IMG/VR virus record: IMGVR_UViG_3300007539_000234
Coordinates: 1-23,340 of that record
Strand: one strand, 5' to 3'
Source of the DNA: a virus
DNA: 23,340 bases
Every line of letters starts with the position of its first letter. Position 1 is the stretch's first letter. The notes beneath the pieces are model-generated. The model saw only the letters and a list, made by a program, of their open reading frames with translations, ran no database searches and was not told the origin of the DNA. Position numbers and translations under genes: made by a program. Of the stretch, positions 3,537-17,545 are shown one piece after another.

Positions 3537-3836
<300 letters not shown>

Positions 3837-13347: not shown

Positions 13348-14353
13348 GAGTCTTTATCTCTTCGAGGGCTTGTAACAGTTCGGGCTTAGAGAAGATACTG
13401 TTAGAATTGTCTATGTACTCCTCTACAACTTTATCATCAATAGTTAGCAACGTGTCGTAATCAACATGAGATGCTTCGTACTTAGGAAGGACATCCTCAA
13501 AGACAACTTCCAGATGTTTAACTTTGTGCTTCTGCAATAGAACCTTCACCAGTTCTTTCTCAGAGCACTCGTCAAGAACATCCATCTTCACACGTAAAAT
13601 AGTGTAGAACGCATCGAAGTTATACTTCTTAGCATCCCTGTCCAAATGTTCCAAGGTCGTAGTTACGTGCCTGATGCCGTGGTTAATAGCCTTTCGGTTT
13701 ACCTCTATGGTTCCCTGGCGAATAATTAACTCATGCACGTACTTCTGTGCGTTGGCCTCTCCAAACGAAGTGGAGTATTGAGTGCCCAGAACAAAGATAG
13801 ATTTATCGTAGATCTTTGGTTTGTGGATGTGGCCTAGGAAAGCCATACGTCCACCACCCTTAAGATGCCTCTTCTTTACGAACGACTCATACCTAAACGA
13901 ACCGTTTGCAGCACAGCCATCAAATCCGAAGTGACCGAATACATGGTTCGTGCTACGTTGCAAATGCTCTACAAGAATGCTCTCATCCTCATAATGAGGA
14001 ATGAAATCAAAATCCTCTCCGCCTATTCGAATCGTTTCAGTCTCCGTAACGACTTTCGCGATATCAGAGAACAGAGACAAGGTTGTTTCCGTACTACCAT
14101 CCTTGGCAATGGTATCGTGATTGCCTCTGTTAATGTAAATGTTCTTTGTGTGCAGCCCCTCAAGAAACTTTCTGAATGCCAGAAGCTCCGCTCCCTTAGG
14201 GTTACGCCTGTGAAAAACATCTCCATTAATGACTACGGAGTCGGGAGGTTTCCTGTTTACCAGCTTTGTTAGCGTAGCTACTTGTTGATCCAAGTAACCG
14301 GGCAGGTAATCTGATCTAAGATGTAGATCAGTTAAAATTACAATTCTGTGCAT
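13337..14353 (-). CDS. gp47/SbcD/Mre11-like nuclease (338 aa)
   Basis: Metallophosphoesterase nuclease subunit that pairs with the gp46-like ATPase. I start at ATG 14353 (MHRIVILTDLHLR), because the metal-binding motif begins at once. An ATG at 14383 adds ten residues inside the polymerase gene. Metal-binding motifs in order: DLH (9-11), GDVFHRR (44-50), NRGNHD (75-80), FGHFG (139-143) and GHIHKP (174-179). These are all expected Mn2+ ligands. The C-terminal about 100 residues hold the likely partner-binding region. It overlaps the polymerase end by 26 nt and the gp46 start by 11 nt, so the three are coupled. Full length for the family (T4 gp47, 339 aa). Confidence 0.93.
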   Translation of the reverse strand: MHRIVILTDLHLRSDYLPGYLDQQVATLTKLVNRKPPDSVVINGDVFHRRNPKGAELLAFRKFLEGLHTKNIYINRGNHDTIAKDGSTETTLSLFSDIAKVVTETETIRIGGEDFDFIPHYEDESILVEHLQRSTNHVFGHFGFDGCAANGSFRYESFVKKRHLKGGGRMAFLGHIHKPKIYDKSIFVLGTQYSTSFGEANAQKYVHELIIRQGTIEVNRKAINHGIRHVTTTLEHLDRDAKKYNFDAFYTILRVKMDVLDECSEKELVKVLLQKHKVKHLEVVFEDVLPKYEASHVDYDTLLTIDDKVVEEYIDNSNSIFSKPELLQALEEIKTHEN

Positions 14354-15878
14354 CTTCGATGAATGATTGAATTTCTTGGGCATTAAGGAGCTTTCCTTTT
14401 TCAGAGAACTGAGCCTCAGTCAAGTGCCCAAAGGAAGTCCCTACCTCTACATCAACTTCAAAAGGTACTACAAAATCTATACCGTACGCAGGTAACAGAT
14501 CATCGGTCATTGTAAGGACCACCTTTAAAAGGGTTGCTACTTTCTCTATATCTTTAGGATCGCACTGAACCTCAACGGAGTCATGTACGGTGGCTAGAAT
14601 ATCAAAGTCTAAGCCTGTGAGATCACGATATCTGTGAAGTCTCTTGATTGAATGCAGCATCAAGTCGGAGGCAGAGCTTTGGATCACGAAGTTCATACCT
14701 TGGCGAAGGGCGCGGTACTGATACTTCTTGAGGGGGCTCTTAATATTAGGTAGGTGCCTACGACGACCAAAAAGACTAACTGCATACCCATTTTGTCGGA
14801 TCATCTTATGAACCTGATTAATCCACTTGAATACTTTCGGAAAGGACTGCTCGTAAGCTGCGAAGATACCTTTGCAGTAACTGATGCTCTTTCCGATTTG
14901 CTGCGCTAGTTTGTTGGGACCTCCCCCGTACACGATAAGGAAGCTAACAGACTTTGCGATCTGCCTTTCCTCCTTCGTAACCTTTTCAGGCTCCTTGCCG
15001 AAGACGAGAGAGGCGGTATACCTGTGAAGGTCCTGGCCCGTGTTAAAGGCTTCGATAAGGTTTGCGTCTTTGCAGCACTGAGCAAGAACGCGAAGCTCTG
15101 CCTGAGAGAAGTCTGCCGCGAGGAATGCTCGGTCACCGTCAGCACGCATAAGTTTCCGAATATTGATTGTATCGGAATCGGACTCGCGCGGCAAGGTATG
15201 GAAGGACACTCCCTTCTTCTTCTTGCCAGCCGAGTATGTGCTACAAGACAGACGGCCAGTAACAACTGTCGCGAAGTTGTACTGGGAGTAAATGCGACCG
15301 TCCTCATTATACTCTAGAGCAGCTTGAACTCCTTTCACATATGTTTTGTGCTGCTTGGCGCGGTACTTGTATTTGAGAAGAGTCTCGATGAAGTTAATAG
15401 CGTCTTGGTTGTCAGTGTCTTCTTTCACCGAGGTGAGGTGCTCTTCACTGATCTGGGGCATCTGCGTCTTCTCGGAAAAAGACGTAGGACGCAAATCGAA
15501 ACCATCGGAAGTAAACAGCACGGACGCCATTTCTATTGTCGAGTTCGGGTTCACCTCACCATGCCCTTTAGGTACAAGGGATTGAAGCTTTTCACCCAAA
15601 GCCTTTAGCTCTTTCTGTAGCTCCTGGTCGAGAACCTCAAGGTAATCAAAATCAACTTGAATACCGAGGTTCTCGACCATGCCAAGAATAACCTGAATGT
15701 CCTTGAGGAGGTTGTTATAAACATGATGCACATGCTTCTCCTCCATCTCCCTTTTCAGTAAGTGGTATGCACGCAACGTGAAGTCGCAGTCCATAGCGTT
15801 ACCAAAAGCAAGATCGTCCAAGGGCATCGTAGCCCAGAAATCATCGGACTTTTTTTTGTTCTTGTTTACTGTAAGCAT
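14328..15878 (-). CDS. Family A DNA polymerase, C-terminal piece: Exo III motif plus polymerase domain (516 aa)
   Basis: Replicative polymerase palm, fingers and thumb. Residues 20-36 (LDDLAFGNAMDCDFTLR) match the Exo III segment of PolI-type 3'-5' exonucleases, so the protein begins inside the exonuclease domain. Exo I and Exo II lie in the gene at 16571-17545, with thyX between. The position of Exo III Tyr497 (E. coli numbering) is Gly here; Asp501 is kept (D30). Polymerase motifs: TGRLS (207-211), motif A DFSQAELR (256-263), finger helix RQIAKSVSFLIVYGG (305-319), with Phe at the position of E. coli Phe762, and motif C VHDSVE (431-436). A TAG stop sits in frame directly before the ATG at 15878, so no longer product is made. 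CTATAATA lies 7 nt upstream. There is no 5'-3' exonuclease domain. Confidence 0.95.
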   Translation of the reverse strand: MLTVNKNKKKSDDFWATMPLDDLAFGNAMDCDFTLRAYHLLKREMEEKHVHHVYNNLLKDIQVILGMVENLGIQVDFDYLEVLDQELQKELKALGEKLQSLVPKGHGEVNPNSTIEMASVLFTSDGFDLRPTSFSEKTQMPQISEEHLTSVKEDTDNQDAINFIETLLKYKYRAKQHKTYVKGVQAALEYNEDGRIYSQYNFATVVTGRLSCSTYSAGKKKKGVSFHTLPRESDSDTINIRKLMRADGDRAFLAADFSQAELRVLAQCCKDANLIEAFNTGQDLHRYTASLVFGKEPEKVTKEERQIAKSVSFLIVYGGGPNKLAQQIGKSISYCKGIFAAYEQSFPKVFKWINQVHKMIRQNGYAVSLFGRRRHLPNIKSPLKKYQYRALRQGMNFVIQSSASDLMLHSIKRLHRYRDLTGLDFDILATVHDSVEVQCDPKDIEKVATLLKVVLTMTDDLLPAYGIDFVVPFEVDVEVGTSFGHLTEAQFSEKGKLLNAQEIQSFIEDAQNCNFN

Positions 15879-15885
15879 CTAAGCT

Positions 15886-15893
15886 TATTATAG
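15886..15893 (-). promoter_or_regulatory. CTATAATA octamer before the polymerase gene
   Basis: Minus-strand CTATAATA fills the 15-nt gap between the thyX stop (15896-15894) and the polymerase ATG at 15878. Spacing to the ATG is 7 nt rather than 4. It could give the polymerase piece its own transcription or start signal. Confidence 0.4.
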
Positions 15894-16571
15894 TCACCGC
15901 CCCATAAGAGCATCGAACGAGTGAGGGAAAACGACACGGGCAAGCTCAGAGACAGCTTTAGCGTACTCACGAATCTCATACTGAGCGTGTTCGTGATCTC
16001 TTAGCTTACAGAAGTGAGCTACAGCGTGCAAAGAAGCCGTCCAGTAGTATTCTGTGTACGTGTTGAAAGGAAGCACCATACGAGCTTGCTCTTTAGCAAC
16101 ACCCGCTTCGAGAAGATCCTTGTAGGTTTTAAAGGACATCGCTGTTCGTGCTAGCACAGCGCCCGAATACTTATCAAGCTTCGAGGTTTCTGAACTCGCT
16201 TGCTTCGAGTCTGTGCTCTGCATCCTTAAAGTTTTCGGAGTGTAGAACTCTGGGGTGTACTCTACATAGCGTCCTGAAATCTCGTTCCATCCGTGAGAGA
16301 TACTATCACCTACCGAGAAGTTGCACCCTACGATATGCTTATACCATTGCCTTGCGACAAACTCTGGGCACTTTACATGAAACGTAATCATGGCGTGTCT
16401 AAAGGGAGACGTATGATCGTTCTTAGCAAGGTAATTAATTAGCTTCTTATCCTTATCATTCAGGATAGTTGAACGACCTCCATAGCTAACACGCGCAGAG
16501 TTTACTGTGGTAAGGTCAGATCCCATATGATCCACAACCTCCACAAAACCGATATCATCTAATACTTTCAT
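15894..16571 (-). CDS. thyX: ThyX flavin-dependent thymidylate synthase (225 aa)
   Basis: Makes dTMP from dUMP using methylene-tetrahydrofolate and FAD/NAD(P)H. With the dUTPase it forms a dUTP-to-dTMP route. Visible: NSARVSYGG (24-32), LAKNDHTSPFRHAMITFHV (48-66), RQWYKHIVG (74-82) and WNEISGRYVEYTPEFY (95-110), the ThyX fold core. The classic RHR-x7-S signature is divergent: KHI replaces RHR, and about a dozen residues (CNFSVGDSISHG) lie before NEISGRY. The C-terminal part has ARMVLPFNTYTEYYWTAS and HFCKLRDHEHAQYEIREYA, as usual. ATG 16571 shares one base with the stop of the exonuclease gene (TAATG). It sits exactly between the two halves of the split DNA polymerase. Confidence 0.93.
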   Translation of the reverse strand: MKVLDDIGFVEVVDHMGSDLTTVNSARVSYGGRSTILNDKDKKLINYLAKNDHTSPFRHAMITFHVKCPEFVARQWYKHIVGCNFSVGDSISHGWNEISGRYVEYTPEFYTPKTLRMQSTDSKQASSETSKLDKYSGAVLARTAMSFKTYKDLLEAGVAKEQARMVLPFNTYTEYYWTASLHAVAHFCKLRDHEHAQYEIREYAKAVSELARVVFPHSFDALMGR

Positions 16572-17545
16572 TAAAATTCTTCTAGCTCAGTAGGCCAGTA
16601 TTGTTTTACGATATCCATCAGGCCGTGCGGCTTGTTCTCATCGATCAGTGCGTGCATGACCTGGGTATCGTGAATATTATTAAAGGATTCAACTCCCCAG
16701 TTGCGTAGGAATTTAAGGTCGAATTTGCAATTATGAAAGACCTTCCCTACAGCAGGATCGCCCATAATCCCAGACACGCGAACCAGAATAGTAGCCAACT
16801 CGCGGTCTGAAAAGCTGGATTCTCTGTGATGGATCGGAATAACAAACGCACGTTTTTCTCCAGTGGCAAAGCCAATACTTGTAATCTTATCTTTCTTGTA
16901 ATCGAGCCCTGTGGTCTCGATATCGACCGAGACGACTTCCTTGGAGGATGCCTCGTCCAGGCAGTCCAAAGCCTCCTGTAGCTCCTTACAGAGCGTGTAC
17001 GAGGACTGTGCTAGCTTGTTCTTGTTTAGCACAAACTTATCGTAGGCAGTCTCAATGTCTTGTACGAACAGATCCCGTAGCTTGGGCTCTGAGTATAGGG
17101 AGAACGGATGGTATACAGGAACTACGGGAATACGAACCCCGTCGATATCAATCCAAAACTCCTTGCCCCTTTTGTTCGAGATGCCAGACATACGAAGAAG
17201 AACTTTCATCGCAAGATTGCCCAATACATAAATCAGCTTGGGGTTGATCTGCTTAAGCTTCTCCTCAAGAGGGGCTCGGTTACTCTGAATAATCTCAGTG
17301 GTAACGTCCTTCTCTGAAACGCCTAGCATGTTGATAGACGCAACAAACTGATAGTCTTCTGCGGGCAACTTTGTGTTACCTAAAAGCTTCATCAACACTT
17401 CATACTCATCATCCTTGAACGAGTAGATCTCGCCACGAACTCGCTGGCAGGAGTCGTGAAGGAATACAATAGGTTCAGAGCCTACCGATTCGTGATGAGT
17501 ATCTTCCTCATTTTCAAAACTTTTTAAGATTTCATCTATACTCAT
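16571..17545 (-). CDS. UDG-like domain fused to the N-terminal half of a PolI-type 3'-5' exonuclease (324 aa)
   Basis: N-terminal piece of the split family A replicase. Residues about 66-170 look like a family 4/5 uracil-DNA glycosylase fold: INPKLIYVLGNLAMKVLL (100-117), then IDIDGVRIPVVPVYHPFSL (132-150). The usual GEAPG-type motif is not seen, so this domain may bind without catalysis. Residues 204-314 are a DnaQ/PolI-type exonuclease: Exo I SVDIETTGLD (206-215; D208, E210), Exo II FHNCKFDLKFL (270-280; D276), then DTQVMHALIDENKPHGLMD. It ends at WPTELEEF, just before where Exo III should come. Exo III begins the next polymerase gene, after thyX. A fusion of UDG-like and PolA domains is, from memory, known in SPO1-type phages. 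ATG at 17545 is 15 bp from the divergent sigma-like gene. Confidence 0.87.
   Translation of the reverse strand: MSIDEILKSFENEEDTHHESVGSEPIVFLHDSCQRVRGEIYSFKDDEYEVLMKLLGNTKLPAEDYQFVASINMLGVSEKDVTTEIIQSNRAPLEEKLKQINPKLIYVLGNLAMKVLLRMSGISNKRGKEFWIDIDGVRIPVVPVYHPFSLYSEPKLRDLFVQDIETAYDKFVLNKNKLAQSSYTLCKELQEALDCLDEASSKEVVSVDIETTGLDYKKDKITSIGFATGEKRAFVIPIHHRESSFSDRELATILVRVSGIMGDPAVGKVFHNCKFDLKFLRNWGVESFNNIHDTQVMHALIDENKPHGLMDIVKQYWPTELEEF

Follow-up and report, generated by a model that had tools for sequence, protein, structure and literature searches.

Uncultured tailed phages of one large group encode their DNA polymerase as two or three proteins. Family A polymerases are single chains. Here, one such enzyme is distributed over separate open reading frames (ORFs), which we call EXO and POL, and the account that we consider probable is an ancient fission, leaving a replicase that would be assembled noncovalently, with its proofreading site formed in trans and with gene junctions that later became tolerant of insertions.

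In the window (the whole 23,340-nt stretch analyzed, positions 1 to 23,340 of IMG/VR virus record IMGVR_UViG_3300007539_000234), the polymerase lies in separate EXO and POL ORFs, placed as follows around a thymidylate synthase gene.

16571-17545 (-): EXO, 324 aa, with a UDG-like N-terminal domain and a 3'-5' exonuclease domain reaching past Exo II
16569-16573 (-): TAATG, overlap of the EXO stop and thyX start; the same overlap couples EXO straight to POL in cargo-free relatives
15894-16571 (-): thyX, FAD-dependent thymidylate synthase, 225 aa (Thy1, 1.1e-49; phrog_85), the cargo of junction 1 in the window
15879-15893 (-): 15-nt spacer between the thyX stop and the POL start
14328-15878 (-): POL, 516 aa, with N-terminal Exo III followed by the family A thumb, palm, and fingers

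The EXO product ends in QYWPTELEEF, followed by TAA (16573-16571), the final A of which is also the first letter of the thyX ATG (16571-16569). From the last EXO sense codon to the POL ATG there are 695 nt, with thyX as the sole gene; the initial annotation had this layout right at base level. Promoter-like sites were not above chance level, and six terminator-like sites were observed against 2.4 expected from shuffles.

Pfam matches of EXO were to the UDG superfamily and DNA_pol_A_exo1 (4.5e-19), and profile searches led to family 4/UdgX uracil-DNA glycosylases and Klenow. POL matched DNA_pol_A (4.9e-80, residues 78-484) and, by profile search, Klenow, with D30 aligned on D501 (residue numbering judged by eye). 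The two products correspond to positions 499-785 (EXO) and 795-1246 (POL) of phrog_17, a single PHROG of intact phage polymerases. These consecutive parts, together with D30 on Klenow D501, bear out the annotation's proposal that one replicase was cut between Exo II and Exo III. EXO and POL were each modeled singly with AlphaFold2; the POL model alone is a Klenow-like polymerase (TM, 0.70-0.76 by query length) and matches Bst/Taq Pol I (TM, about 0.75). By Pfam, by this model match, and by motifs A, B, and C (D256, R305, K309, F313, Y317, H432, and D433, all invariant), POL is a family A DNA polymerase. Low-confidence stretches of the models lay mostly at the broken edges (EXO 290-324 and POL 1-40), with others in the first residues of EXO and at POL 203-207; low confidence at the broken edges is consistent with, and no proof of, completion in trans.

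Split loci were collected by scans of IMG/VR, giving 108 unique loci (window included) in 75 clusters (90% EXO identity); no relatives were found in the genome contigs searched. Relatives are cited by L number where needed. The split is strongly conserved across the clade: the EXO end and the POL start fall at an equivalent place, the start codon is kept (M1 in 105/108), and the EXO and POL frames differ at TAATG. An assembly artifact at the junctions, which the annotation had named as a possible objection, is ruled out by the recurrence of the same arrangement in 108 unique loci. Both EXO and POL are under strong purifying selection (pairwise dN/dS, about 0.045 in each, though many pairs approach saturation of dS). 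When intact relatives were included, the trees placed all split rows on one branch, apart from the fused rows (support, 100); the fused relatives were gathered by a separate scan seeded with an intact polymerase, so that intermediates between the two forms may be missed. In a comparison with 67 intact relatives, the median number of residues missing at the EXO/POL join is 0 (interquartile range, -5 to +10), and the two halves fit end to end without evident loss, as had been claimed from the window alone. Where both halves are readable, fused relatives have one ORF in all but L254, in which an in-frame stop (L254:4019-4021) separates the exonuclease and polymerase parts of an otherwise fused-type gene. 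This stop may reflect either an error or a separate breakage event, and L254 was left out of the split-locus count.

The residues expected of a DEDDy exonuclease are shared out between the two genes.

16916-16924 (-): Exo I codons D208-I-E210 in EXO (Pfam DNA_pol_A_exo1); D and E in 105/108
16718-16720 (-): Exo II codon D276 in EXO; D in 107/108 aligned sequences
15801-15803 (-): G26 in POL, where Klenow has its Exo III tyrosine (Y497); Gly in all 108 split sequences
15789-15791 (-): Exo III codon D30 in POL (Klenow D501); invariant in 108/108

Conservation was read from an alignment of the 108 loci (about 44 effective sequences), and the 3 sequences lacking a match at D208/E210 have a mismatch or no coverage there. 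The four carboxylates (D-E-D-D) are complete only when EXO (D208, E210, and D276) and POL (D30) are combined. Neither product holds a full exonuclease, so proofreading would need the two to assemble; to judge from these residues, the reasoning of the initial annotation stands. The Exo III tyrosine (Y-x3-D) is absent from all 108 split sequences, its position being Tyr in 78/78 aligned intact relatives and Gly throughout the split clade, which suggests that exonuclease activity may be changed or weakened. This Tyr-to-Gly exchange is an active-site change diagnostic of the split clade. It goes beyond the initial annotation, as do a further break in the thumb and the recurrent use of the junctions as insertion points.

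The thumb break makes the polymerase three-piece in over 40% of clusters. POL consists of two overlapping ORFs (157 and about 370 aa, with an ATGA junction) in L025-L029, L035, and others, and the thumb is interrupted at almost the same point in another, distant clade (L150-L221), where an ATG or GTG start overlaps the preceding stop. Second-junction starts are ATG or GTG wherever they were read, junction frames differ between the clades, and genes stand at the second junction in L150, L197, and L220 (dNMP-kinase-like, DUF6445, and unknown). In POL numbering, the model places the break between thumb helices 145-154 and 158-191, and the window is unbroken at the corresponding point.

15408-15419 (-): approximate equivalent of the second break, POL residues 154-157

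Two changes are needed on the tree, and enforcing a single origin is 43 log-likelihood units worse (p-AU, 0.092); two origins of the second break, rather than one, are favored, not proven.

The content of junction 1 varies widely. Twenty of the 75 clusters, deep branches among them, have no cargo between EXO and POL, so that the thyX-free related phages proposed as a check by the annotation do exist. Nineteen of these 20 have a TAATG or TGATG overlap (for example, L025, L068, L072, L149, and L150), and in L084 the EXO-POL gap is 1 nt. Cargo-bearing gaps span about 0.15-3.7 kb, and at least six unrelated cargo families occur in them. The occupant is thyX in the window, L003, L041, and L049; other gaps contain genes for a PDDEXK_11 nuclease, a glycosyltransferase, a glutamine synthetase-like protein, saccharopine dehydrogenase, or a 2OG-Fe(II) oxygenase, or else small ORFs or opposite-strand genes. 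The tree requires no fewer than 14 changes of the gap/overlap state. thyX itself is some 18 kb away from POL in the L001 contig and directly 3' of POL in the L150, L190, and L217 contigs.

Several other features of this junction were seen. A 60- to 70-aa ORF recurs directly 5' of POL in many two-piece phages, regardless of other cargo, and possibly encodes an accessory subunit.

L018:5796-5984, L126:6975-7160, L063:1779-1964, and others: recurrent 60- to 70-aa ORF
L002:4017-5996: 659-aa ORF without a Pfam match, in a 3.7-kb gap beside glutamine synthetase-like and thyX genes

Some members of the three-piece clade (L175, L179, L181, and L189) have opposite-strand genes between EXO and POL, so a shared mRNA or cotranslation is not universal.

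The split PolA is apparently the only replicase of these phages. Nine contigs of 68-102 kb, which may be incomplete genomes, hold one PolA core each, and no PolB, Pol III alpha, or RNase_T-type exonuclease above the cutoff was found in them.

The nearest sequences from named phages fall short of about 32% identity, and those inspected are unsplit at both break points. Intact UDG-like/exonuclease/PolA polymerases (Okubovirus phi18, Gordonia phage MScarn, and myovirus ctfzr933; PaBG, PMC7412058) share the domain order and the catalytic carboxylates with the split form (about 25-30% identity); they differ in retaining the Exo III tyrosine and in being encoded by one ORF, or in Bacillus phage Adastra by two spliced exons annotated as a joined CDS, whereas the split locus lacks a single polypeptide. 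The MEP401-type OM43 phages likewise have a family A polymerase in two ORFs, separated by a small one, for which the authors left an intron possible (PMC10580990); there, however, the palm is broken just before motif A, a break absent from the present split loci, which are broken in the exonuclease and thumb. In jumbo phage MIJ3, the replicase also occupies two genes with an inserted ORF, but it is a family B enzyme with a split intein, and splicing would restore one chain (PMC6892783). Separate subdomain proteins are thought to reconstitute the minimal Pol III alpha of group 2.2 jumbo phages (PMC7824862), an unrelated family with distant genes and other breakpoints. No description of the exonuclease break, the three-piece form, or thyX at this place was found in open-licence papers, which is weak evidence of absence.

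The annotation had taken the insertion of thyX to be what cut the gene in two, and the window, with thyX alone in the gap and tight junctions, invites that reading. We now regard it as highly improbable: the identical break occurs with other cargo or none in 108 loci on one branch, cargo-free overlaps in deep branches contradict it, thyX stands elsewhere in four contigs (L001, L150, L190, and L217), and no repeats were found flanking the window insert. Given these other positions of thyX and the variable or absent cargo, the simplest view is that thyX entered the gap later. By parsimony, fission probably came first and cargo later; an ancestral insertion that was lost afterwards is the less parsimonious alternative. 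That the gap is an intron, an intein, or a programmed frameshift, with one continuous polymerase being made, has precedents in the group I introns of phage polA genes (Bacillus phage Adastra) and in the intein-split PolB of MIJ3 (PMC6892783); for the present loci, we find it barely credible. Searches for Rfam introns gave no meaningful match in the window (E<=1) or in 13 relatives (gathering score), and Pfam matches of EXO, POL, and the scanned cargo ORFs include no intein/Hint or homing-endonuclease domain. No split-intein halves were found by Pfam at the broken ends, which join without extra sequence. The frames of EXO and POL differ at TAATG, start codons are conserved, and an intron would have no space in the cargo-free overlaps.

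EXO and POL might instead act separately, POL as an exonuclease-free polymerase and EXO as a free nuclease or a noncatalytic accessory, with proofreading lost or reduced. Glycine in place of the Exo III tyrosine in all split sequences and the poor C-terminal edge of the lone EXO model would fit this, yet D30, which would have no evident use absent EXO, is invariant in 108/108, and the EXO carboxylates are nearly so; we consider separate action improbable. A further possibility alters the history only and is compatible with fission and noncovalent assembly: the three-piece form may be ancestral, and two-piece phages, including the window, may have rejoined the thumb. Two changes on the tree are required either way, and the test against one shared origin of the second split falls short of significance at the 5% level, but intact relatives are unbroken in the thumb, the tree grouping all three-piece rows is the worse one by log-likelihood, and junction frames differ between clades, which together make this history unlikely.

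Under the favored explanation of ancient fission, the gene for a UDG-like/exonuclease/family A polymerase would have split between Exo II and Exo III in an ancestor common to the whole clade. Its two products, or three where the thumb is broken, would join noncovalently into one replicative polymerase, EXO giving three metal-binding carboxylates and the N-terminal region of POL the fourth, and a Klenow-like fold would be completed in trans. Assembly of EXO and POL into one enzyme is likely, and proofreading by the pair is plausible. Translation would reinitiate at the EXO/POL overlaps. Once the genes were independent and overlapping, the junction could have accepted insertions, so that thyX, glutamine synthetase, nuclease, and other genes came and went at this position afterwards. 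More tentatively, and with slightly less than even confidence, we suggest a clade-wide family A replicase of two or three noncovalent subunits whose interface proofreading site has Gly for the Exo III Tyr, whose assembly could make it possible to engage, tune, or swap proofreading, and whose gaps serve as gene-acquisition slots.

A natural, ancient PolA broken at one or two places reveals points at which the fold tolerates breaks, and the clade is a source of ready-made split polymerases in which two or three small proteins allow a direct test of trans-complementation of proofreading. In addition, metabolic genes have repeatedly landed at the junctions of what is a core replication gene.

Two minor observations concern the rest of the window. 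The ThyX signature region (within 15894-16571) reads YKHIVGCNFSVGDSISHGWNEISGRY, which we take to be unlike the usual RHR signature. A tRNA-Asn gene (gtt) lies within the span of an ORF, the translation of which (SVEHSAVNRRVVGSSPTRG) looks like a read-through of the tRNA gene.

3614-3689 (-): tRNA-Asn (gtt)
3537-3836: ORF spanning the tRNA-Asn gene
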